A stretch of 64,000 nucleotides of DNA from Cycloclasticus sp. symbiont of Bathymodiolus heckerae (GTDB taxonomy: Bacteria > Pseudomonadota > Gammaproteobacteria > Methylococcales > Cycloclasticaceae), in contig LWTL01000120.1 of assembly GCA_002101235.1 (NCBI GenBank), forward strand, positions 1 to 64,000, written 5' to 3'. The notes under the pieces are model-generated. The model worked only from the letters and a program-made list of their open reading frames with translations, was not told where the DNA came from and searched no databases. Positions 7,650 to 45,370 of the stretch are shown one piece after another. Both the position numbers and the translations under genes were made by a program. The stretch's first letter is position 1. Every line of letters begins with the position of its first letter.

Positions 7650-8728
7650 GGAAGAGTAAACGTGGCGATGATAGGCATATGATCAGATAAAGTGAGTGAT
7701 TTATCTTGTTCCACAAAGGCTTCGGTAGACTTCAGTTGGGGGCTGTAGAAAATATAATCAATAGTTCTGTCGGGTTGGTTAACGCGTGGGTCGTTTGGAA
7801 AGTACGTGAACCATTGTTGGCGCTGTTCTCCCTTGGTTGCTTGGAGATTGGGTATGGCTAAGTGGTGCTGATAAAGCGTGTGAATGGCAGACGTGCTTTC
7901 GTGACTGTAGCGTTGTTCGTTGGGTAATAATTCGTAGGTGTTAGGTGGTAACAGGTTAAAGTCACCACCGATAACCCAAGGGATACTGTTAACACTAAGT
8001 GAGGTTAAGTGCGTATCAATTTGAGTGATTTGTTTTTGGAGGGTATTAGTGCCTTTTGAAAAAGCAGATAAATGTGTGTTCAAAATAGCTAAGTCATTCG
8101 AACCTTTAACGGGCAAACGAACGTCTAATAAAGCGCGTTTAAAATTAAATAACTGATTAATGGGATCTTGTGGGATAAGGCTTAATTGCAGACGTGTCGC
8201 AGCGGTTATTTTATATTTTGAAATAACGCTAAGTTTTGTGCCAACCGCGCCCATTATTTTAGGGTGTGGGACATAGTCGGCTTTCCAATACAGGCTGCTT
8301 GCATGGCAGGCGTAATTGTTGGGTAGTAGCGCTAATAATTGAGCTAATTGGTCAGCATGGTCCGTTCGTTTGGCGCCATCATCAACTTCTTGTAATAAAA
8401 TAATGTCAGGGTCTTGTTGTTTGATGTGCTCAGCTAAGACATGCAATGTTTTGCTGATATCTGCTGTTGATGGACGCTCGTCGGGTCCTTTGCTATCGGC
8501 TACGTCATAAAAAAAGACGTAGTTCTTACCCGCCATGAACTGTACGTTTTGGTTGTACAGTTTGATGCTTTGCCCAGGGTTTAATGTTGGCGCATCAGCG
8601 GTGCAATGCACGCCTTCTTGCTGAATAGGCTCGGGGTGGAAGGTACTGAACCAGACGGCTGAAAACACACCGGTTAGCAGTAAGCTAAGTGAGGATAAGA
8701 TCCAATAAAATACTTTTCTAATGGTCAC
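7646..8728 (-). CDS. Endonuclease/exonuclease/phosphatase family protein, membrane-anchored (copy 2)
   Basis: 360 residues, paralogue of the protein at 2179-3246. It shares the order membrane anchor (about 8-27), NVQFMAGK motif with N61, a G-P-D-x-x-P-S segment, LLQEVDDGAKRT with E114, NTHLSAFSKG, GGDFNLLPP and SDHMPI. The near identity of these blocks, including an unusual FMAGK-x-Y-V-F segment not needed for EEP catalysis, shows a common origin and probably similar substrates. It follows the SPOR gene by 17 bases and overlaps the hydrolase. The substrate (nucleic acid, phosphoinositide-like lipid or other phosphodiester) is not determined by the sequence. Confidence 0.88.
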   Translation of the reverse strand: MTIRKVFYWILSSLSLLLTGVFSAVWFSTFHPEPIQQEGVHCTADAPTLNPGQSIKLYNQNVQFMAGKNYVFFYDVADSKGPDERPSTADISKTLHVLAEHIKQQDPDIILLQEVDDGAKRTDHADQLAQLLALLPNNYACHASSLYWKADYVPHPKIMGAVGTKLSVISKYKITAATRLQLSLIPQDPINQLFNFKRALLDVRLPVKGSNDLAILNTHLSAFSKGTNTLQKQITQIDTHLTSLSVNSIPWVIGGDFNLLPPNTYELLPNEQRYSHESTSAIHTLYQHHLAIPNLQATKGEQRQQWFTYFPNDPRVNQPDRTIDYIFYSPQLKSTEAFVEQDKSLTLSDHMPIIATFTLP

Positions 8729-8745
8729 AGTGGTTTCGCTAACCG

Positions 8746-9336
8746 CTACTTTAATTTGATGGCAATACTGTCAATATTGTTATGGTGTAAGCGATTTTGA
8801 ATTTTATCGACTATTCTAAACGAGGTGTAGGGCCCCGATTTAACACGGTGCCAAATAGAGCCGCTTTGGTTAACTGTTTGTACGACAGACTCAATGCCAA
8901 GCAAGGCGATACGTGCTTTTAATGTGTCGGCTTGGGCCGCTTTTCTAAACGATCCTATTTGAATAATGAACGTGCCAGGTTTGCTTTTACCCGTGCCTTC
9001 TAATCGACGGCGTTCTTCAATTTCGTGTTCAGGAATAACGATTTCCATTTCAGGTAAGATTTGATAAAAATCAAAACGAGGTTTGGTGCTTGCAATTGGG
9101 TCAGGTTTAGGTGGCGCTAAATTGGTTTTTTTCTTAACGTCACGAACATCATTCTGCAAAATATTAGGTTTTTGAATATGAGTGGTTGTGGGGGCGGATG
9201 TCTGCTCCAAATCGGATAAAAACATCATAAAGCCGCCGATAAGCAAGCCGGTAATCAGCCACCAATAGCCGGGTATCGGTTTTTTCTTTTTCTGAGCATT
9301 ATTGTGGTTAACGCGGTTTTTATAATCCCTTGGCAT
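8746..9336 (-). CDS. SPOR-domain cell division protein (FtsN-like)
   Basis: 196 residues: a short basic cytoplasmic N-terminus (KKKKPIPGYWW), one membrane helix (about 24-41), a Pro/Lys/Thr-rich periplasmic linker, and a C-terminal SPOR domain (about 118-196) with the beta-alpha-beta pattern FIIQIGSF ... WHRVKSGPY. SPOR domains bind denuded septal glycan, and the short bitopic form next to argS is the usual place for ftsN-like genes in gammaproteobacteria. The essential short FtsN motif in the linker is not obvious, so I leave the symbol open. Its start overlaps the argS stop by one base (TAATG). Confidence 0.88.
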   Translation of the reverse strand: MPRDYKNRVNHNNAQKKKKPIPGYWWLITGLLIGGFMMFLSDLEQTSAPTTTHIQKPNILQNDVRDVKKKTNLAPPKPDPIASTKPRFDFYQILPEMEIVIPEHEIEERRRLEGTGKSKPGTFIIQIGSFRKAAQADTLKARIALLGIESVVQTVNQSGSIWHRVKSGPYTSFRIVDKIQNRLHHNNIDSIAIKLK

Positions 9337-11093
9337 TACATAGACTCCGGTGCGTTAACGCCAAGTAGGTTTAAACCATTGTGTAATACTTGTTTTGTTG
9401 CATTAATAAGAGCAAGCCTCGCTTGCATAAGCTCTTGGTCTTCAATGATAAATTTATGCGAATTGTAGTAGCTGTGAAACTGCGTCGCTAAATCGCGTAA
9501 ATAATGCGTCAACTGGTGGGGCTCATATTGCTGAGCGGCCTGCAGTAATTTTTCTGGATAACGGCTCAGGGTATTCACGAGATTAACTTCGTGTGTTTCC
9601 GTTAACTTGTTCACGTTGCTAATGCCATCGCTGACTTGGTAAGCGAGTCCTTTTTCAGCGAGTAGCCGCATGACGCTACAGACACGTGCGTGGGCGTATT
9701 GGACGTAAAAAAGCGGGTTCTCGTTGGATTGTGACGTCGCTAAGTCAAGATCAAAATCCATGTGTTGTTCGGCTTTGCGCATGACGTAAAAATAGCGGGC
9801 CGCATCAGAGCCAATTTCATCACGTAATTCGCGCAAAGTAACGAATTGCCCAGAGCGAGTGGACATTTGCATTTTTTCGCCGTTTTTATACAGTACAGCA
9901 AATTGAACGAGGAGTACTTTCATGCGTTCAGGGTCAGCCCCCATGGCTTGCAAGGCGGCTTTAACGCGAGGTACATATCCGTGATGGTCCGAACCCCAAA
10001 TATCAATAATATCGAAACCGCGTTCCAATGTGTGCAAGTGATAGGCGATGTCAGAAGCGAAGTACGTTGTTTGTCCATTGTCGCGAATCACAACGCGATC
10101 TTTTTCATCGCCAAAGTCCGTTGATTTAAACCACCATGCCCCGTCTTTTTGGTACATGTGGCCGGAGGCTTTTAGCTTTTCAATGGCGTTATTAATGGCT
10201 CCATTGTCCATGAGGGAGCGTTCAGAAAACCAGTCGTCATAGTGAACGCCAAAGCCTTCAAGGTCGTTGCGAATATCACCTAAAATAGAGGAGAGTGCGG
10301 CATCAAATATAAGCGTGTAGCTGTTTTGCCCTAATAACTCTTTTGCACGCAAAATAAGCGCGTCGATGTGTTTTTCTTTATCGCCACCGGCTGGCTCGTC
10401 GGAGGTGATGTTATTAAATACATCAGCTGCATTGGCTAGAAATTTATCGCCGTGCTGCTGCTTTAAATTGTTTGCAATGGTTAGAACGTAATCGCCTTTG
10501 TAGCCATTGCTTGGGAATGTGAATGATTGGTCGCAGGCGTCAAGGTAACGTAGCCAAACACTGGTGGCTAAAATATCCATTTGGCGACCGGCGTCATTGA
10601 CGTAGTATTCGCGGTGTACTTGGTAACCAATGGCGGTAAGCAGGTTGGCGAGTGTTGCGCCATAAGCGGCGCCACGACCATGCCCAACATGTAGCGGGCC
10701 GGTTGGGTTAGCGGATACAAATTCTAGTTGCACCTTTTTGCCATCTGCAATATTCGATGTTCCGAAACGTGCGCCTTGCTCAATAATAGTGCTGATGACG
10801 CTATGTTGGCTCAGCGGGTTAATGAAAAAGTTGATAAACCCAGGGCCTGCGATATCAACGCGTGAAACGTCTGCGTCTGCAGGTAAATGATCAATGATAC
10901 TTTGCGCAATTTGTCGCGGGTTCTTTTTAGCTGCTTTTGCTAACGTCATGGCAACGTTACTTGCATAGTCACCGTGAGAAGCATCGCGCGTACGCTCAAT
11001 CTTAATCGTGGGTGCAACCTCGTTAGGCAACTCGCCTTGAGACTGTAACGATGATATGGCTTGCTGAAGAAGAGACGCCAAACGTGTTTTCAT
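9336..11093 (-). CDS. argS: Arginyl-tRNA synthetase
   Basis: 585 residues, class I aminoacyl-tRNA synthetase charging tRNA-Arg. The N-terminal additional domain (about 1-115) leads to the HIGH motif HVGH at 135-138 in [13 protein letters not shown]; the KMSKS equivalent is KMQMSTRSG, where the loop lacks a canonical second Lys, as is common in ArgRS. The C-terminal DALR anticodon-binding domain follows with a typical FHSYYNSHK segment. Length matches the family (about 577-590). It lies 87 bases after priA and overlaps the SPOR gene, the usual gammaproteobacterial arrangement. Confidence 0.98.
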
Positions 11094-33305: not shown

Positions 33306-34670
33306 TTATCGAAGAATTATGAAGAAAGCGCTGTTGCCGCGCTGGACATTTAAAAGTAGTGATTTGCGTTTCTTGGCAGCGCTCACCAACTCTAAAATAT
33401 TACGTGTTTGTATGCGGTTAGCGCGGGCAATAATGTCACCTTTTTGAAGGCCGTTAATCGAGGCTTTAGAGCCAGAGCTTATATCGATAACCTTAACGCC
33501 AAACTTGATATTGTTTTGGATTTCGTCAGGAGATAGGTTCGATAACGTTGCGCCGTCTAGTTGGTGATGGACGCGATTGCCGTCGATGGTAGCAATTTTG
33601 CGCTTGCCTATTTTGATTGTAATTTGCTGCTGTTCACCATTACGCAATATTTGTAAGGTGGCTTTATCCCCAACACTGAGTAAACCAAGGCTGTTGCGTA
33701 AGCTAGAGCTGTTTTTCGTCGCCTTGCCATTAACGCTTAATACAATGTCGCCAGGGTGTAAATCAGCTTTTTGAGCGGGTGAATTAGTGTCTACTTGGCT
33801 GATAATGACGCCTTGCTGAATCTTTAGGTTAAAGGCTTGAGAGAGCTCAGGTGTCAGGTCCTGAACGCTAATGCCGAGCTGTCCACGGTTCACTTTCCCA
33901 AATTTAAGTAATTGGTTTTTAAGGCTAATGGCCATATTGCTTGGAATGGCGAAACCAATGCCAACGTTGCCACCGTTGGGTGCAATGATGGCGGTATTAA
34001 TACCAATGAGTTCGCCTCTCAAATTGATGAGTGCGCCACCTGAATTACCTGGGTTTATCGAGGCATCTGTTTGAATAAAATCTTCGTACCCTTCAATGCC
34101 AAGGCCGGAACGGCCTAGTGCACTAACAATTCCTGATGTAACAGTTTGGCCAAGACCAAAGGGGTTGCCAATGGCAATAACGAAATCGCCAACGCGGAGC
34201 TCATCAGAATCGGCAACTTTTAAATCAATGAGTCGCTTGCCTTGGATTCGAATGAGCGCGACATCTGACTCAGGATCGCTACCAACAACGTCCGCGTTGA
34301 AAGAACGACCATCACGTAACGTAACGGTAATTTTGTCAGCCTTGTCGATAACGTGGTGGTTGGTAATGATAAGGCCTTTTTCGGCATCAACGATAACGCC
34401 CGATCCTAGACTTTGCGTAGAGCGTTTTCTAGGGGTGTTCGGGATATTGAAAAACCGGCGAAAGAAAGGGTCTTGTAATAGAGGGTTTTCACGCTGTTGA
34501 ACCATGTTTTTGGTGGCAATGTTTACAACAGCGGGCGTTACTTTTTCAAGGATTGGCGCAAGGCTGGGTAGCGGCTGATTTTCCATCAGGACAGGCAGTG
34601 CAGCGTGTGCTTGCGCGCTTGTGAAAATAGAAAATAAACTAACTACACAAAGAAACTTTAAAGGCGACAT
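33306..34670 (-). CDS. Do family serine endopeptidase (DegQ/DegP-like)
   Basis: 454 residues with signal peptide (about 1-23) and a trypsin-like domain with catalytic triad H106 (TNHHV), D136 (SDVALI) and S210 (PGNSGG), followed by two PDZ domains (about 260-345 and 360-450). Periplasmic quality-control protease-chaperone. Loop LA near residue 60 is of medium length, as in DegQ more than DegP; the C-terminal PDZ2 is intact. The DUF6524 gene lies 16 bases upstream on the same strand. It could also be MucD-like; that cannot be decided here. Confidence 0.94.
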   Translation of the reverse strand: MSPLKFLCVVSLFSIFTSAQAHAALPVLMENQPLPSLAPILEKVTPAVVNIATKNMVQQRENPLLQDPFFRRFFNIPNTPRKRSTQSLGSGVIVDAEKGLIITNHHVIDKADKITVTLRDGRSFNADVVGSDPESDVALIRIQGKRLIDLKVADSDELRVGDFVIAIGNPFGLGQTVTSGIVSALGRSGLGIEGYEDFIQTDASINPGNSGGALINLRGELIGINTAIIAPNGGNVGIGFAIPSNMAISLKNQLLKFGKVNRGQLGISVQDLTPELSQAFNLKIQQGVIISQVDTNSPAQKADLHPGDIVLSVNGKATKNSSSLRNSLGLLSVGDKATLQILRNGEQQQITIKIGKRKIATIDGNRVHHQLDGATLSNLSPDEIQNNIKFGVKVIDISSGSKASINGLQKGDIIARANRIQTRNILELVSAAKKRKSLLLNVQRGNSAFFIILR

Positions 34671-34686
34671 GATGATTTCCTAGTTG

Positions 34687-35106
34687 TTAAACGTCGACAT
34701 CATCTGCGTCAACCTGACCGCTCATTCGGCGACGAATATGAGACCATGACATGCCTGTCGCCATAATGAAGCATAAAATAGTTTGAATGATATACGTGAC
34801 TGCCTGAACGTTGTCGGCAGCGACAATGCCCCAGTCAATAATCATCCAGAAAAGGGTGCCAAAAAGAGCGGTCGCCAAGGCGATGCCAATAATGCCCAGT
34901 GAGCGTAATGTGGCGCGAATATAAACGACCCAGCCAACGAGTAAGACAAGGCCTGAAAACGCCATCACTGATGTGATGTCAGGAATTTTTGTAATCGCCC
35001 AGTGGTAATAAGATAGGCCGGCTGAATTGTAACTTGCAAAGACAAGTGTCAACGCAATACAAAAGCGAATGAAAAAACTTGACCATGAAAATTGAGTTGA
35101 TTTCAA
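34687..35106 (-). CDS. DUF6524-like four-helix membrane protein
   Basis: 139 residues from TTG 35106. This start is favoured by GAGG seven bases upstream; a TTG 18 bases earlier has no such site, and the family begins with a similar F-x-W-x-S-F-F-x-R pattern. It has four hydrophobic segments (about 13-32, 46-63, 71-95, 100-122) and a polar tail ending in acidic residues. I assign DUF6524 from the N-terminal W-x-S-F-F-x-R-F and LSYYHWA segments. Function unknown. It precedes the Do protease by 16 bases, so it may be an envelope-related membrane protein. Confidence 0.65.
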   Translation of the reverse strand: MKSTQFSWSSFFIRFCIALTLVFASYNSAGLSYYHWAITKIPDITSVMAFSGLVLLVGWVVYIRATLRSLGIIGIALATALFGTLFWMIIDWGIVAADNVQAVTYIIQTILCFIMATGMSWSHIRRRMSGQVDADDVDV

Positions 35107-35321
35107 TGAGCTACCTCTATACAAAAGTTAATGATTAATCTCTATTCTAACTGAAAACACAGGCAACCCAATAAAGGTTAAAGTTATTGATAGGCGGCGG
35201 CGTAGAAAGAGCGTGATGTACTTGGCAAAAAGCCAGTTGCTATAGCCGAGGTAACACCATTTTCGTTGCATGGGCTACACTGTATTATGTATAGCAAAGA
35301 AAATGATGATGACGGATAAAT

Positions 35322-38300
35322 TTGAACGCGCAACTTAACCAAAATAGCCATGACCTTTTAAAGAATTTTATACCTTTAAATACATTACCGAGTGCGCGTT
35401 ATACAGAGATTTGCCATGAGTGCCTTGTTGAAGAATGTGCGAAGGGAACGATTTTATTTGAGCAAGGCGATGATGCTAAAGAGTTCATTTACCTCATTAG
35501 TGGGATGATTGGTCTTTACGCGGGCGAGATGGAAATGGAGACCATTGTTACGGGTTCTGAAGCAGCGCGATTTGCCATTGCTCACCATATTCCGCGCAAA
35601 GTTAAAGCAGTCACCAAATCAAAAGCCCGTATCGTACGAATACCAACCCATATGCTTGATATGGAACGCCCCGAAGATAAAGGGCAAACCTATATGGTGG
35701 ATGAGGTTGAAGACCAGGGTGGTGACTGGATGACAACCATGTTGCAATCGCCTGTTTTTCAACGATTACCGGCATCGAATTTGCAAAAGGTGATGATGCA
35801 AATGGAAGAGGTTGCATTTCAAGCCGGTGAGGTCGTCGTTAAGCAAGGTGATGAGGCGGATTACTATTACATTATTAAGTCCGGTGATTGTGAGCTAATT
35901 AGGCAACCATCAGAAGGTGCCAGGCCTGTTAAATTAGCTGAACTACATAGCTGCGATGCGTTTGGCGAAGATGCGCTGCTGTCGGGCAACCCAAGAAATG
36001 TGACTGTGAAAATGAAAGGCAAGGGGCAGATGCTTCGCTTGTCAAAAGCAAATTTCATTTCCTTGGTGAAAGAGCCTGTTTTGCAGTATGTAAGCTTTGA
36101 AGACGGTCAGCAAAAAGTTGATGCTGGTGCTAATTGGTTAGATGTCCGCAGTGTTGATGCATATGTCGATAGCCATATTGAAGGTAGCATAAATATTCCG
36201 TTTTTCTCTCTTCGTATGAAAGTCGCGGAATTGAAGCATGATCAACTTCAAGTGTTGGTTTGCGAGAAAGGTCGAACGAGTGAGGCAGCCGCGTTCTTAT
36301 TGTTAAAATTTGGTTTTAACGCGGTCATTCTAAAAGCTGGTATGAACGGCTTGCAGAAGCAAAAGGCCAAGCCTCACGCCACTGCTAGTCCGGCGAAGGC
36401 ACCGACTCAACCACTGGAAGTTGTAAATATAGCTCAAAGCGGTGACGAGACGGCAGTTGCAAATGAAGTGAAGCAGCAAGATGACGGGCTGCTAACAGCG
36501 GCACAAAATAAGATTATAGAGTTAGAAAAATTCAGCGCACAACTTAACGAAAAACTGAATACATTAGAGCTCGAGCGAAATAATTTACAGCAACAAAATG
36601 AAGAGAAATCAGTGTTGGTTTCTGAGTTACAAGCATCTTCACAAGTTGTGGCAGACGAGCTTGAGGCTAAGAGGGCAGATGAGATAACCAAAGGTGATGA
36701 AAGCAGCCAAGAGTTATTGAGTGAGCGTGAAAAGAACGCATCACTTACGGCAGAGCTAGAAGAGTTAACAGTCGAGCTACGTAGTATTGAAGAGCAAAAA
36801 GACATAGCAGGTAAAGATTTAGAAGATCAACTGGCGACTGCTAAGCAGGAAATGGCTGAGCTTCGGGAACAAGAGGCGGTATTAAGAAGAGACGCAGAGG
36901 AAGCCAAAACTGTACACGAAGAAGGGCTGCGTTCTAAATCGCAAATTGAAGAACAGTTAAAGCAATCAAACAGTGATTCGCTGGAAAAGGTGTCTGAAAA
37001 AGAAGAGCAACTTCAGACATTGAATTCGCAAATTGTTGATATGGCGGCTAGCCTGAAAGGCGCCGAAGAGATGTCGGATGGTTTGCAGAAATCGCTGGAA
37101 GAGAGAAGTTATGAGCTTAAGCAGGCGCAAGAGGCTGAAGTTGGCTTTATAAATCAACAAAAGCTAGAGGCAGAAAGTCAGAAGGGTGAATTTGACGTTG
37201 AGATGGGTACGTTAAATCATCAATTGGCTGAGAAAGTTAGCAAGTTGGCTGTGAATGAGGCGCGCATAAGTGCGCTTGAAAAAGAGAGAGATTTGCTGAG
37301 TGAGTCTGAGCAGAGTAAAGAGCGACTTATCCAAGAAAAACAAGCAGATATTGATTCGTTTAGTCATCAGCTAAATGAATCAGGTGTTCAGCTTGTTGCG
37401 CTGAAAGAGCAAAAGGATAATTTAGAAGCGGTTGTATTGAAAAGTGACGAAGAGTTAGCTGGTTTTATTGATGAGCTAAGTAACGTGAAAATTGAGAGAG
37501 ATGAGTTACGCGAAAAGCTGGACGATTCGGGTAGTGGTCTATCAAAAGTGTTGGCCGAGAAAGAACAGCTAAACGAGAAGTTGAGCCTTTCAATAAATTC
37601 AGTAAATGAATTTGAAGAGCGAGTACAGGCTAGCGAAGCTGAAATTATTGAGTTGAAAGAACGCAATGAGGAAGTTTTGACAGAATCGTCAAATAACCTT
37701 GAAATGGTCGAGGTTGATTTACATAAGGTGGAACTCGAAGTTGAGGGCTTGCGCGAAAAAGTGGCGAATGCCGAGTCGTTACTAAGCGCGGCGACATCTG
37801 GTAAAGAGATGCTAGAAAACGAGTTAACGCAACGTTTAGCCGATATTGAGCATGATTTAAGTGAGTCGGCAATAAAGAACACAGAGCTAGAGAATAAGCT
37901 CGACGAAGCGCAGCGGAGTGCTGAAGAAAAAAGTGCTGAACTAAAAGGATCTTTGGAGCAAGCGCTTAATGAGTCTGCCGAGCAGCTTATAAGGTTTGAG
38001 ACTGAGCTGAAAGAAGCGCAACAAGGTAAGCAAGGTATTGAGGCAGCGTTACAACATTCAGAGTCTGGAAAAGAGGCGCTGGAGGATGAGTTAAAGCAAC
38101 GCCTGCTTAATGCTGAAAGAGCTCTTGAGGATGAGGTAACAAGGAGTGCTGAGTTAGAGAAAAACCTTGGTGAAGAAAAGTCGCAAGCAGAGGATGAACG
38201 TACGAAATTGGAAGCTTCTTTACAAGAAGAGAAGTCGAGAGTCGGATTGGCAGAGCAAGCGCTTAGTGACCATTCTCAACGTGTTCAAAGCGATGTTAGT

Positions 38301-39623
38301 GAGTCGGCTCAGAAGGAAATGCAGCTTGAAGCGACGCTAAAAGAGGTTCAGCAGAACAAGAGCGATGTCGAGCAAGCGTTACAGAATGCGGAGCCTGAAA
38401 AAGGCGCTTTGCAAAATGAATTAGTACAGTTAAAAAGCAAGGTGGAAAGCGATTCTCTTGAGCAGGGGAAATTATCTAAACAGTTGATAGAGGCGCAGCA
38501 AGGAGCTAGTGAAGTAACCAAAGAGCATGAAAGTGATAGAGCACAGCTGGCTGAATTATTGCAGCAAGAGAAAGTTAGCTTTGGGGAAAAAGAGGATGCC
38601 TTACTAGCTCAGCTAGAGGAAGCTAAATTAGAACTGACGGCGCAGCAAGCTGTTCTTGAAGTAAAACAGCGTGATATGGGGAGTTCTCAAGCAGAGTTTG
38701 GGAAAAATGTGTCAACACTTGAAGGTAAACTCGAAGCATCTCGGGTAGAAACAGAAAGTTCGCAGCAGCGATGCGAAGTATTAGAAAGTCAATTGAGCGC
38801 ATTGTCGTCAAGTCAGCAAACAGAAGAGGGCGAGCTTAAGCAGCAAGTGTTTGACTTAGAGTCTAAGCTTCAAGCAGCCCAAGAAAGCATATTATTGAAA
38901 GAAAATGCGGCAGGTGTTGTAACGGCAGAGTTAGTTGCTTTGGAGCAAAGCCAGCTTTCTAACGAGGGCGCATTAAGTGAGGCCCAACAAAAAGTTGAGG
39001 AGCTTGAGCAATCACTGAAAAAAGCTGAAGAAGTGAAAGCTCAGTTAGCAGTAAGTGAAAGTGACACGCATAACGTACAGCTAGAGGAATTGAACGAACA
39101 ATTATTAGTGGCTGAAGATAAGGCAAAGCATGCGTTAGAGAAAGCGAGTGAGTCGCTGGATGCGAAAGAGCTCAGTGAAAAAGAAGTGAGCGCGCTTAAT
39201 GAAGAGTTGGCAACATCGAGTCAGTTAAATAAGGATTTAAACGGTCGCATATCCAGTATGAAAAAAAGCGCACCTAAAGACGCTCATGCTGATGAAGTTA
39301 GAATCGCGGAACTTGAGCAGCAACTAGATGACTCAAACTCTGCTTTAATGGATTTAGAGATCAAAATGGAGACGTCGGCTGTAGAAATAGATGAGGGGCC
39401 GACAGAAGAGGAAAAGAGTGCATTAAAAGCCTTGGAATCAGAGCTTAATTTGGTACGAGAACAAACTGAAAAAGACATACTTGCGATGCAGGTTAAAGTT
39501 GAAAATAGCGAAAAAATGAATTTGGCATTAAAGAAAAAAATTCTTTCTATGCAAACGTTAGCTAATCAAGAAATTGTTGAAGAAGAAACGCCTAAAGAGA
39601 AGAAGAAAGGTTGGTGGAAATAA
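35322..39623 (+). CDS. Giant cNMP-binding-like / rhodanese / coiled-coil protein
   Basis: 1433 residues from TTG 35322. Order: a degenerate cyclic-nucleotide-binding-like domain (about 14-115), a second, better one (about 143-250) with a near-complete phosphate cassette FGEDALLSGNPRNVTV, a rhodanese domain (about 258-345) with active-site loop C314-E-K-G-R-T-S, a Pro/Ala linker (346-385), then about 1030 residues of heptad coiled coil and a basic, aromatic tail GWWK. The cNMP-rhodanese part matches a known proteobacterial gene type; the long coiled coil is the surprise. No signal peptide or membrane helix is seen, so it is cytosolic, possibly a scaffold or length ruler. Its end overlaps the Rieske gene start. 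Ligand and function are unknown. Confidence 0.85.
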   Translation: MNAQLNQNSHDLLKNFIPLNTLPSARYTEICHECLVEECAKGTILFEQGDDAKEFIYLISGMIGLYAGEMEMETIVTGSEAARFAIAHHIPRKVKAVTKSKARIVRIPTHMLDMERPEDKGQTYMVDEVEDQGGDWMTTMLQSPVFQRLPASNLQKVMMQMEEVAFQAGEVVVKQGDEADYYYIIKSGDCELIRQPSEGARPVKLAELHSCDAFGEDALLSGNPRNVTVKMKGKGQMLRLSKANFISLVKEPVLQYVSFEDGQQKVDAGANWLDVRSVDAYVDSHIEGSINIPFFSLRMKVAELKHDQLQVLVCEKGRTSEAAAFLLLKFGFNAVILKAGMNGLQKQKAKPHATASPAKAPTQPLEVVNIAQSGDETAVANEVKQQDDGLLTAAQNKIIELEKFSAQLNEKLNTLELERNNLQQQNEEKSVLVSELQASSQVVADELEAKRADEITKGDESSQELLSEREKNASLTAELEELTVELRSIEEQKDIAGKDLEDQLATAKQEMAELREQEAVLRRDAEEAKTVHEEGLRSKSQIEEQLKQSNSDSLEKVSEKEEQLQTLNSQIVDMAASLKGAEEMSDGLQKSLEERSYELKQAQEAEVGFINQQKLEAESQKGEFDVEMGTLNHQLAEKVSKLAVNEARISALEKERDLLSESEQSKERLIQEKQADIDSFSHQLNESGVQLVALKEQKDNLEAVVLKSDEELAGFIDELSNVKIERDELREKLDDSGSGLSKVLAEKEQLNEKLSLSINSVNEFEERVQASEAEIIELKERNEEVLTESSNNLEMVEVDLHKVELEVEGLREKVANAESLLSAATSGKEMLENELTQRLADIEHDLSESAIKNTELENKLDEAQRSAEEKSAELKGSLEQALNESAEQLIRFETELKEAQQGKQGIEAALQHSESGKEALEDELKQRLLNAERALEDEVTRSAELEKNLGEEKSQAEDERTKLEASLQEEKSRVGLAEQALSDHSQRVQSDVSESAQKEMQLEATLKEVQQNKSDVEQALQNAEPEKGALQNELVQLKSKVESDSLEQGKLSKQLIEAQQGASEVTKEHESDRAQLAELLQQEKVSFGEKEDALLAQLEEAKLELTAQQAVLEVKQRDMGSSQAEFGKNVSTLEGKLEASRVETESSQQRCEVLESQLSALSSSQQTEEGELKQQVFDLESKLQAAQESILLKENAAGVVTAELVALEQSQLSNEGALSEAQQKVEELEQSLKKAEEVKAQLAVSESDTHNVQLEELNEQLLVAEDKAKHALEKASESLDAKELSEKEVSALNEELATSSQLNKDLNGRISSMKKSAPKDAHADEVRIAELEQQLDDSNSALMDLEIKMETSAVEIDEGPTEEEKSALKALESELNLVREQTEKDILAMQVKVENSEKMNLALKKKILSMQTLANQEIVEEETPKEKKKGWWK

Positions 39624-40009
39624 AAGAGATAGAAGTTGATGGTGTGGGCTATGTTCAGGCGGTGGATGTAAAAACGCTTGGCGGTAAATGCTCTAGGGCC
39701 TTCGATATTAATTTGGGTGAGCGAGGTGCTTGTAGCGGTTTTTTTGTGCGTGAGAAAGACATGACGCTGCGGGCGTATAAAAACAGCTGTCCTCATACGG
39801 GGGCGCCTTTAAATTGGACGCCGGACCAATTTTTAACAAAGGAAGGTTTGTATATCCAGTGTTCGATACATGGGGCTATGTTTAAAACGCAAAATGGTGA
39901 ATGCTTCGCGGGCCCGTGTGGTGGGAAGTTTTTAAAGGCATTGAGTTTTGTAGAGCAGTCTGGAATGGCATATGTAGCTTTGTTAGATATCGAAAAAAAC
40001 CCGCCATAA
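39614..40009 (+). CDS. Rieske 2Fe-2S ferredoxin-like protein
   Basis: 131 residues from GTG 39614 (TTG 39611 is an alternative); the start lies inside the end of the coiled-coil gene. It carries a Rieske motif: C-x-H in SCPHTGAPL and C-x2-H in CSIHGAMF, separated by 19 residues, with the loop Cys-free otherwise. It is a stand-alone small Rieske protein with no membrane helix or catalytic domain, so it serves as an electron carrier or redox switch. Overlap with the rhodanese/coiled-coil gene implies coupled translation and a shared task. Two extra Cys lie in GECFAGPCGGK, as seen in related proteins. Confidence 0.9.
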   Translation: MEIKEIEVDGVGYVQAVDVKTLGGKCSRAFDINLGERGACSGFFVREKDMTLRAYKNSCPHTGAPLNWTPDQFLTKEGLYIQCSIHGAMFKTQNGECFAGPCGGKFLKALSFVEQSGMAYVALLDIEKNPP

Positions 40010-40206: not shown

Positions 40207-40443
40207 TTAAACTTTTTCGCCGCGAGAGCGAATGTCAGTCAAAATGGCATCAATGCCTTTTTTGTCGATTGTACGCATGCCATTTGCTGAAACACGTAAG
40301 CGTACAAAGCGGTTTTCGCTTTCTACCCAAAAACGATGGTGGTGCAAGTTTGGCTCAAAGCGACGACGCGTTCTATTTTTCGCGTGAGAAACGTTGTTTC
40401 CTGACATTGGGCGCTTGCCGGTGACTTGGCATACTTTAGACAT
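40207..40443 (-). CDS. rpmB: 50S ribosomal protein L28
   Basis: 78 residues, the usual length of L28 in gammaproteobacteria, with [20 protein letters not shown] at the start and the [14 protein letters not shown] segment. Expressed from the promoter at 40500-40528, with rpmG as the second gene. Only one Cys is seen (Cys5), so the protein is of the zinc-free type. radC is immediately upstream on the same strand, as in E. coli (radC-rpmB-rpmG). Confidence 0.98.
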
Positions 40444-42988: not shown

Positions 42989-45370
42989 ATGATAAAAAAA
43001 ATTATCGCTATATTGCTATTGCTGGTCATTGTTGCCGGTGGTGCAGGTTATGCTTACATCGGGCAAATAGAGCAGCAAAACGTTGAACAAGCCGAGCAAT
43101 TAAAAGTGCGGGGGCAAAAAGTAAGTGCTGTGTTATCGAGTAAAGTAAAAAAATGGCGCCAAGCGGTGGGTGTGCTAGCGGCAGACGCGGTATTGATTTC
43201 GGCTTTAAAAGAAAGCGAAGAGGCTGTGAATGATTGGGTTGCAGGCCAAGGCGCTACGTTTGATGACATGATTAAACTACGCGTTATTCGTCCAGGTTTG
43301 ATGCAAGTAGATACATCAGTTAACCCTCCTTTAGGATACGCAGGGCTAGATCTGATCCGAAAGGTTGAGGCGTCGAAAAAAATACAAATGCCTGAAGTGC
43401 ATATGATGACGAGTGATAATCGACATATTGCGATCATTGCGCCGGTATTAGAAGGTGATGAATTACTGGCGGTTGTATTAAGTAGTATTAGTGTGGAGGC
43501 CATACAAAAAGCGTTTAAGTCTGCTGTGAAGGGCGAGCAAGGTGGTTGGTTGCTTTTAAAACAAGGCGGTTTGAAAATCGTTTCTACTGGAGCGCCTTCG
43601 CATAAAGCCGGTTCAGATATCGGGAATATCCCAGTAGCGGGTACGCGGTGGAAAGTTTCGTTTAAAAAGAAAGCACTGGTGGCACCGTTGACACAAAGCG
43701 ACTTATTTACCTATGTGGCCAGTTTGTTGGCGGCGATATTAGTTTTAGGTTTGCTGATAAGTGTTTTAACGAATAAAGACAGACGTAAAAAGCTAGGCGC
43801 ATCGATTAAAAAAAGAACAGTTAAAAAGAAGAAAGTAGCATCTATAGCACCTGAGGGTGATGAGCAGAATTTAGGTGAGGATGAATTAAAGGAGCGGGCG
43901 ATAGCTGATGCGGTTAAAGCGAATGCTGAAAAGAACTCGGGGCAATTAGCGGGCCCTAGCTTTATGAAAGATGATGGTATTGAAGTTGAGACGCAAATGG
44001 ACGTGCTGCGATCAATTTTTAGGGCTTATGATATTCGTGGAATTGTTGATGAAACATTAACGGAAACGGGTGTTTTTGCAATCGGCCAAGCGATTGCAAC
44101 AGAGGCGCTAAGCGTCGGCCAAAAAACTATTGCCATTGCGCGTGATGGGCGCTTGCATAGCCCCAGGTTAAGTGAGTCTCTAGCAAAAGGTATTCAATCG
44201 ACGGGTTGTGATGTGATCGATGTTGGGCAAGTGCCAACGCCTGTGCTGTACTTTGCCACTCACCAGCTGGACACTCAATCGGGTGTAATGATTACAGGTA
44301 GTCACAACCCAAAGAATTATAATGGGTTGAAAATAGTAATTGCTGGTAACACGCTATCGGGTGATGCGATTCAAAACTTATACAAACGCATTGAAATGGA
44401 TGACTTTGAGAGTGGCGAGGGTTCTTATCAGCAACAAATGATGCTGCCTGAGTATATAGGCGCAATTACGGCAGATGTCCGTTTAGGTCGCATGATGAAA
44501 ATTGTGGTGGACTGTGGGAATGGTGTTGCGGGTGAAGCTGCGCCGATGTTGTTATCCACATTGGGTTGTGATGTGGTGCCATTGTATTGTGAAATTGATG
44601 GTAATTTCCCAAATCATCACCCTGACCCGAGTAAGCCCGAGAATTTACAAGAGCTGATCGATAAAGTTAAAGAAGAGGAGGCCGAGCTTGGCTTAGCCTT
44701 TGATGGTGATGGTGACCGCTTGGGCGTGGTTGATTCTAGTGGTAATGTAATTTGGCCAGACCGACAAATGATGTTATATGCAATGGATGTGCTATCTCGG
44801 CAAGCCGGTGCGGATATTATTTATGACGTAAAATGCACGCGTAATCTGGCTAAAGTGATTGCTAAACATGGTGGCAAACCTATCATGTCAAAAACGGGTC
44901 ATTCATTGATTAAGGCCAAGATGAAAGAAACGAATGCAGAACTTGCGGGTGAAATGAGTGGGCATATTTTCTTTAAAGAACGTTGGTATGGTTTTGATGA
45001 TGCGCTTTATACGGCGGCCCGTTTACTGGAAATCGTGACAGCAGAATTTAGGTCTACGACAGAAATTTTTGCAGACTTGCCTGACAGCGTGAGTACGCCG
45101 GAACTTAATATTAGTTTACAAGAAGGTGAGAACTTCAGATTTGTGGAGCAATTACAAGCGGCGGCACAGTTTGAAGACGCTAAGATTATCACCATTGATG
45201 GCATACGTGTTGAGTTTAAGGATGGCTGGGGGTTGGTTCGCGCATCGAATACCACGCCGTCGTTAGTGCTGCGCTTTGAAGCGGATAATGAAGTGGCACT
45301 AGAGCGAATTAAGGGCGTGTTCAAAGAGCAAATGTTAAACATAAAGGAAGATATTGAATTGCCTTTTTAA
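42989..45370 (+). CDS. algC: Phosphomannomutase/phosphoglucomutase, long membrane-anchored form
   Basis: 793 residues. The last 460 are an AlgC-type alpha-D-phosphohexomutase interconverting the 1- and 6-phosphates of mannose and glucose: catalytic Ser438 in TGSHNPKNYNG, the Mg motif DGDGDR at 572-577 and the sugar-binding EMSGH block. Before this lies an N-terminal module with membrane helices at about 5-24 and 241-260 and a periplasmic or extracellular region between them, then a Lys-rich linker. Pseudomonas annotations show similar long forms, so the fusion is probably genuine rather than a mis-start. The role of the sensor-like region is unknown. It lies three bases after dut. Confidence 0.9.
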   Translation: MIKKIIAILLLLVIVAGGAGYAYIGQIEQQNVEQAEQLKVRGQKVSAVLSSKVKKWRQAVGVLAADAVLISALKESEEAVNDWVAGQGATFDDMIKLRVIRPGLMQVDTSVNPPLGYAGLDLIRKVEASKKIQMPEVHMMTSDNRHIAIIAPVLEGDELLAVVLSSISVEAIQKAFKSAVKGEQGGWLLLKQGGLKIVSTGAPSHKAGSDIGNIPVAGTRWKVSFKKKALVAPLTQSDLFTYVASLLAAILVLGLLISVLTNKDRRKKLGASIKKRTVKKKKVASIAPEGDEQNLGEDELKERAIADAVKANAEKNSGQLAGPSFMKDDGIEVETQMDVLRSIFRAYDIRGIVDETLTETGVFAIGQAIATEALSVGQKTIAIARDGRLHSPRLSESLAKGIQSTGCDVIDVGQVPTPVLYFATHQLDTQSGVMITGSHNPKNYNGLKIVIAGNTLSGDAIQNLYKRIEMDDFESGEGSYQQQMMLPEYIGAITADVRLGRMMKIVVDCGNGVAGEAAPMLLSTLGCDVVPLYCEIDGNFPNHHPDPSKPENLQELIDKVKEEEAELGLAFDGDGDRLGVVDSSGNVIWPDRQMMLYAMDVLSRQAGADIIYDVKCTRNLAKVIAKHGGKPIMSKTGHSLIKAKMKETNAELAGEMSGHIFFKERWYGFDDALYTAARLLEIVTAEFRSTTEIFADLPDSVSTPELNISLQEGENFRFVEQLQAAAQFEDAKIITIDGIRVEFKDGWGLVRASNTTPSLVLRFEADNEVALERIKGVFKEQMLNIKEDIELPF

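Follow-up and report, generated by a model that had tools for sequence, protein, structure and literature searches.

The window, 64,000 nucleotides of contig LWTL01000120.1 from the Cycloclasticus symbiont of Bathymodiolus heckerae (2.13-Mb genome), carries an open reading frame of 1433 codons followed on the same strand by a small Rieske [2Fe-2S] protein gene (Table 1). The large frame begins with TTG, to which an ATG is aligned in seven congeners. Its product contains two cyclic nucleotide-binding domains (CNB; PF00027, jointly 86.3 bits against a gathering score of 27.5), a rhodanese domain, a long coiled coil and a short conserved tip. This agrees with the initial annotation, whose reading of a degenerate first CNB, a near-canonical second CNB and a rhodanese is borne out by Pfam and by residue conservation; the rhodanese Cys is indeed at residue 314, and the claimed overlap between the 3′ end of the large gene and the Rieske frame, which ends at 40009, is likewise present. 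CNB1 lacks the ribose-binding Glu, but its decay is not random, as the domain retains a signature of its own (ARF[AP]LAHQxPRK, ARFAxAHxxPRK in the feature list). A structure model of the head (CNB1, CNB2 and rhodanese) has a mean pLDDT of 82.6 and a pTM of 0.56, the latter leaving the domain packing uncertain and any coupling between domains unreadable.

Table 1. Features of the locus, with coordinates in the window and the evidence for each.
Feature	Position	Strand	Evidence
DegP-type protease gene, upstream marker, divergent from the large gene	33306..34670	-	Same place in most order loci read
CNB-CNB-rhodanese-coiled-coil protein, 1433 aa	35322..39623	+	ORF, Pfam; congener ATG alignment
CNB1, ribose-binding Gly-Glu absent	35433..35651	+	PF00027, 29.3 bits, over cut-off
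CNB2, canonical phosphate-binding cassette FGEDALLSGNPRNVTV	35811..36071	+	PF00027, 66.3 bits
Rhodanese domain, aa 264-346	36111..36359	+	PF00581, 48 and 52.4 bits
Rhodanese active-site Cys314 codon (CEKGRTS loop)	36261..36263	+	Sequence; Cys in 75/81 heads
Coiled-coil rod, ~residues 365-1395	36414..39506	+	3.5-residue periodicity, low Pro, dN/dS 0.18-0.20
Conserved C-terminal tip, residues 1396-1433, end KKKGWWK	39507..39620	+	dN 0.08 vs L046; genus tails
Purine-rich tract and GTG start of Rieske gene, within KKKGWW codons	39603..39616	+	Sequence; ten genus members compared
Rieske [2Fe-2S] protein	39614..40009	+	PF00355 40.5 bits, alignment, fold matches, start comparison
rpmB, downstream marker, convergent	40207..40443	-	Same place in most order loci read

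The overlap between the two genes is found within the genus. GTG followed by GAA or GAG lies at the same point before the stop codon of the large gene in nine of ten genus members, and the tenth (L049), in which the large gene is one codon longer, also has GTG-GAA. The Rieske gene thus compared probably starts at GTG 39614 rather than TTG 39611, which would make the overlap 10 nt. Numbered from this GTG, the cluster ligands C59, H61, C83 and H86 are invariant in 18 sequences, and the fold matches Rieske proteins.

Neither the length of the frame nor its setting is explained by error or mobility. The initial annotation had allowed for the long coil being an assembly artefact; the same arrangement occurs in two single-contig genomes of the genus, which excludes this. 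The chance that the gene is a misassembly or a chance ORF is negligible, and this explanation was rejected, since frames of 1102-1513 aa (753-1167 residues beyond the head) are open in intact congeners, the two single-contig genomes included, and every part of the protein is under purifying selection. A mobile-element origin was also rejected, there being no plasmid match and conserved synteny: the large gene lies between degP and rpmB in most loci read of the home order, and rpmB-radC-dfp-dut-algC-argB is kept beside the head gene in two loci outside it (L119 and L120). Between the protease and the large gene, a small hydrophobic protein is encoded on the minus strand (34687-35124) and is conserved in the genus loci read; similarity searches found no counterpart in other families. 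Further downstream, a plus-strand gene (42989-45370) encodes a phosphomannomutase/phosphoglucomutase-type protein of 793 aa with an extended membrane and sensor-like region at its N terminus, also found in L119, L120 and L126.

The rod of about 1030 residues is a genuine coiled coil, as had been proposed: its hydrophobic periodicity is 3.5 residues (z = 8.7 against shuffles), and it contains 18% Glu and 0.7% Pro, with a single Pro in residues 364-1318. Internal duplication was rejected as its source, no self-matches being found within the coil. Among close congeners, the head has a dN/dS of 0.06 and the coil one of 0.18-0.20, with values of 0-0.14 at the C-terminal end. The comparison with the more distant L046 has a saturated dS; its dN values are 0.10 (head), 0.65 (coil) and 0.08 (last 38 residues). 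By these measures, both ends of the protein are held by selection and the rod drifts in sequence and length, the coil ranging from ~90 to >1400 residues among relatives. Such fast evolution and variable length fit a spacer or scaffold better than the cytoskeleton-like role of the initial annotation, which is unproven. The basic GWWK tail is present as described, but it is partly dictated by the overlapping start codon: the final codons AAG AAG AAA GGT TGG TGG AAA TAA also provide the Rieske gene with its GTG start and a purine-rich tract; W1432 and K1433 are therefore doubly constrained, and the motif alone is weak evidence. Contact of the tip with the membrane or a partner is suggested by the conserved last 38 residues, by the transmembrane (TM) tails of relatives and by basic tails, among them GRLFRRK in L116, whose downstream gene does not overlap.

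Far from being a one-off combination, the 345-residue head defines a class-wide family. It is encoded in 170/301 genomes of the home order and in 170/369 Gammaproteobacteria genomes sampled (E ≤ 1e-30), and outside the class it was found in few genomes (five in one search), all with head-sized ORFs. The same domain order, when sought in other genomes, is conserved in relatives. Their architectures comprise head only (~350 aa), head with coil, head with coil and TM segment, and head with coil, TM segment and an FGE-sulfatase domain; TM segments were called by a simple hydropathy threshold, and the FGE domain was identified by Pfam in L118, by NCBIfam relatives in L120 and by a C-terminal GFRxxR signature in the others. 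Head-only forms are common (72 of 150 class-level ORFs listed are <430 aa). The second CNB carries its Glu in 80/81 heads and its Arg in 77/81, with genus member L049 among the few to lose the Arg. The first CNB has Pro in 80/81 heads and Arg in 75/81, and the usual Gly-Glu is absent. The rhodanese Cys is kept in 75 of these heads and lost in six, with five Ser and one Gly as substitutes in a table of 78 heads; the Gly occurs in a Rieske-linked relative (L116 4655-9709). On a quick tree of the 81 heads (midpoint-rooted, with SH-aLRT as the only support), architecture labels are clustered far beyond shuffled labels, and L116 joins the members of the order in a starred group.

Other arrangements also occur at head loci. 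Two different long head genes adjoin near Sel1-repeat genes in L114, L130 and L132 (divergent pairs) and in L131 (tandem pair), and L134 contains a tandem of two head-only genes 40 bp apart (7774-10002). TM-type heads in L098, L100 and L104 adjoin NERD-domain genes, and TerB genes recur near heads in L100, L104, L108, L117 and L122.

Association with the Rieske gene extends well beyond the genus, and its dismissal as a genus quirk was rejected. Linkage was scored by looking for Rieske hits on the contig of each of the 150 listed class-level heads; 18 of the heads listed have a same-strand Rieske gene no more than 9 kb downstream of the head domain, with 0.18 expected. The coupling singled out by the initial annotation is thus conserved, including far outside the genus, but as a property of long forms: among the heads listed, it is found for 17/45 ORFs of ≥1000 aa, 1/19 of 700-1000 aa and 0/86 shorter ones, leaving short-coil and head-only members without it (Fisher p = 1.5e-8 for ≥1000 aa against shorter among the heads listed, two own-genus genomes left out and related genomes not being fully independent). 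At least seven changes are required on the head tree, indicating that the link was gained or lost repeatedly. The Rieske gene also occurs alone. Congener G031 (L056 5886-6415) keeps it with the large gene cleanly missing and 68 bp between the DegP side and the Rieske gene, which indicates that the Rieske protein has a role of its own, and across the class Rieske relatives mostly lie away from heads. In six loci read, a PfkB-family sugar kinase gene lies between the head gene and the Rieske gene; these loci (L118, L119, L120, L126, L109 and L116) share the operon order CNB-CNB-rhodanese-coil, kinase, Rieske, and all but L116 have the TM segment and FGE domain. A PfkB-family kinase directly follows the head gene in L127, with no Rieske gene nearby, and a YjbQ gene lies between head and Rieske genes in L128.

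The components of the system are familiar, and their combination is undescribed, widespread and accompanied by a conserved operon. Sequence and fold searches identify PKG/PKA regulatory modules as the nearest relatives of the tandem CNBs (e.g. 4z07 and 3of1); the likeness lies in the two CNBs with a canonical cassette in the second, and what the protein shares with the PKA regulatory subunit is the tandem CNB fold. Unlike those modules, the protein is bacterial, lacks the ligand Glu in its first CNB, is fused to a rhodanese and coiled coil, and has no known kinase partner. Mycobacterial Pat (NF058543) similarly fuses a CNB in cis to an enzyme domain, but the match covers the CNB and, at 45.8 bits, is far below the cut-off of 460; the acetyltransferase is absent, with a rhodanese in its place, two CNBs and a long rod. 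The rhodanese resembles single-domain PspE and GlpE in fold and active Cys (30-38 bits), though it falls below the family cut-offs and is a cytoplasmic fusion under two CNBs. The Rieske protein shares the small soluble fold and cluster ligands of dioxygenase ferredoxins (CarAc, 3gce; biphenyl, 1fqt), from which it differs in an extra Cys pair (C97/C102, invariant in linked Rieske proteins besides the four ligands), a PDQFL stretch conserved between the ligand loops, and a genetic tie to the CNB-rhodanese protein instead of an oxygenase. By analogy, the presence of cNMP domains in sulfur operons has a precedent in Family 2B encapsulins, whose operons combine a cNMP domain with cysteine desulfurase and rhodanese genes (PMC8346489), though there the fold is that of a capsid, the rhodanese gene is separate and the coiled coil is absent. 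Membership of the SMC or crescentin families was rejected on scores: SMC reached 32.6 bits over the coil only, against a cut-off of 567, and the crescentin rod profile did not match the 1433-aa protein. A CBASS/Pycsar-type defense effector was also rejected, as PADLOC matches (17-25 bits) cover only CNB2 and do not extend beyond the shared CNB. The initial annotation knew of no system with this combination, and no description of a CNB-rhodanese-coil fusion was found in the open-access literature searched; database annotations may name the domains. An Acinetobacter paper was dismissed as a prior description, its 'rhodanese' and 'cyclic nucleotide' belonging to different genes.

On these comparisons, the favored interpretation, put forward tentatively and given somewhat less than an even chance, is a membrane-associated, cAMP-responsive scaffold that carries a rhodanese and has the Rieske protein as its redox partner. 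The genome encodes a class I adenylate cyclase; a class III cyclase gene was looked for in the genome and not found. Cyclic AMP from the class I enzyme would bind CNB2, with CNB1 in a structural or allosteric role, and the resulting change in shape would expose or hide the rhodanese site, with C314 as the presumed persulfide carrier. The heads would be held off the C-terminal tip by a dimeric coil that, with ~0.15 nm for each of 1030 residues, could reach ~150 nm, and the tip would contact the membrane or a partner, through basic-aromatic residues here and a TM segment in related lineages. The co-translated Rieske protein would be a dedicated redox partner, moving electrons to or from the persulfide, or else a redox reporter. 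For the large protein, we infer ligand identity, catalysis, dimerization, membrane contact and Rieske interaction. The more elaborate version is unlikely to hold in full: a PKA-R-like sensor would gate the transfer of persulfide at the tip of a long membrane-tethered rod, the Rieske protein would be the electron partner, and in other lineages a sugar kinase would take part, as would an FGE-type domain that follows the TM segment. Such a system would link cAMP, sulfur and redox across the class.

The cAMP-responsive scaffold is consistent with the retained CNB2 Glu/Arg and rhodanese Cys, the cyclase gene, the conserved ends with a drifting rod, the TM and TM-FGE tails, and a Rieske link confined to long forms. 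Against it stand the six heads without the Cys, including Rieske-linked L116, which argue that catalysis is not universal, the few losses of the CNB2 Arg (L049 included), the Rieske gene of G031 without a head, and the double constraint on GWWK. The missing Cys makes a non-catalytic docking role of the rhodanese possible, and with the solitary Rieske gene of G031 and the many class relatives away from heads, it counts in favor of a cNMP-dependent adaptor that would gather clients through a rhodanese serving as a binding module, next to a housekeeping Rieske gene kept by co-transcription. This adaptor is an unlikely explanation that nonetheless deserves serious weight; against it, the Cys persists in 75/81 heads, and the Rieske link is far above chance and specific to long forms.

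The same Cys losses and the ~1030 residues of heptad coil would also suit a crescentin-like filament-forming protein, in which the head would be a cNMP-controlled assembly switch and the rhodanese mainly a docking fold, and an FGE-type relative does show a weak crescentin-rod match (16.6 bits; the cut-off is 100). Given a coil that varies from ~90 to >1400 residues, many head-only relatives, and a rod that is the least conserved part of a protein itself without a crescentin match, a filament appears improbable. A different ligand, another nucleotide or a nucleoside, would make the protein a sensor of metabolic state; the cyclic-nucleotide Glu is missing from CNB1 throughout the family, and trypanosome PKA regulatory subunits, which are among the fold matches, bind nucleosides (PMC10959531). 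The canonical CNB2 cassette, kept nearly everywhere, and the cyclase gene make this quite improbable.

Work on bacterial cAMP has centered mostly on Crp-type transcription factors. In about half of the sampled Gammaproteobacteria genomes, a tandem CNB module resembling the regulators of eukaryotic kinases is joined to a sulfurtransferase fold. If cAMP does gate the rhodanese, this would represent a non-transcriptional output of cAMP tied to sulfur and redox. The conserved operon of head-coil protein, PfkB-family kinase and Rieske protein makes such gating directly testable.
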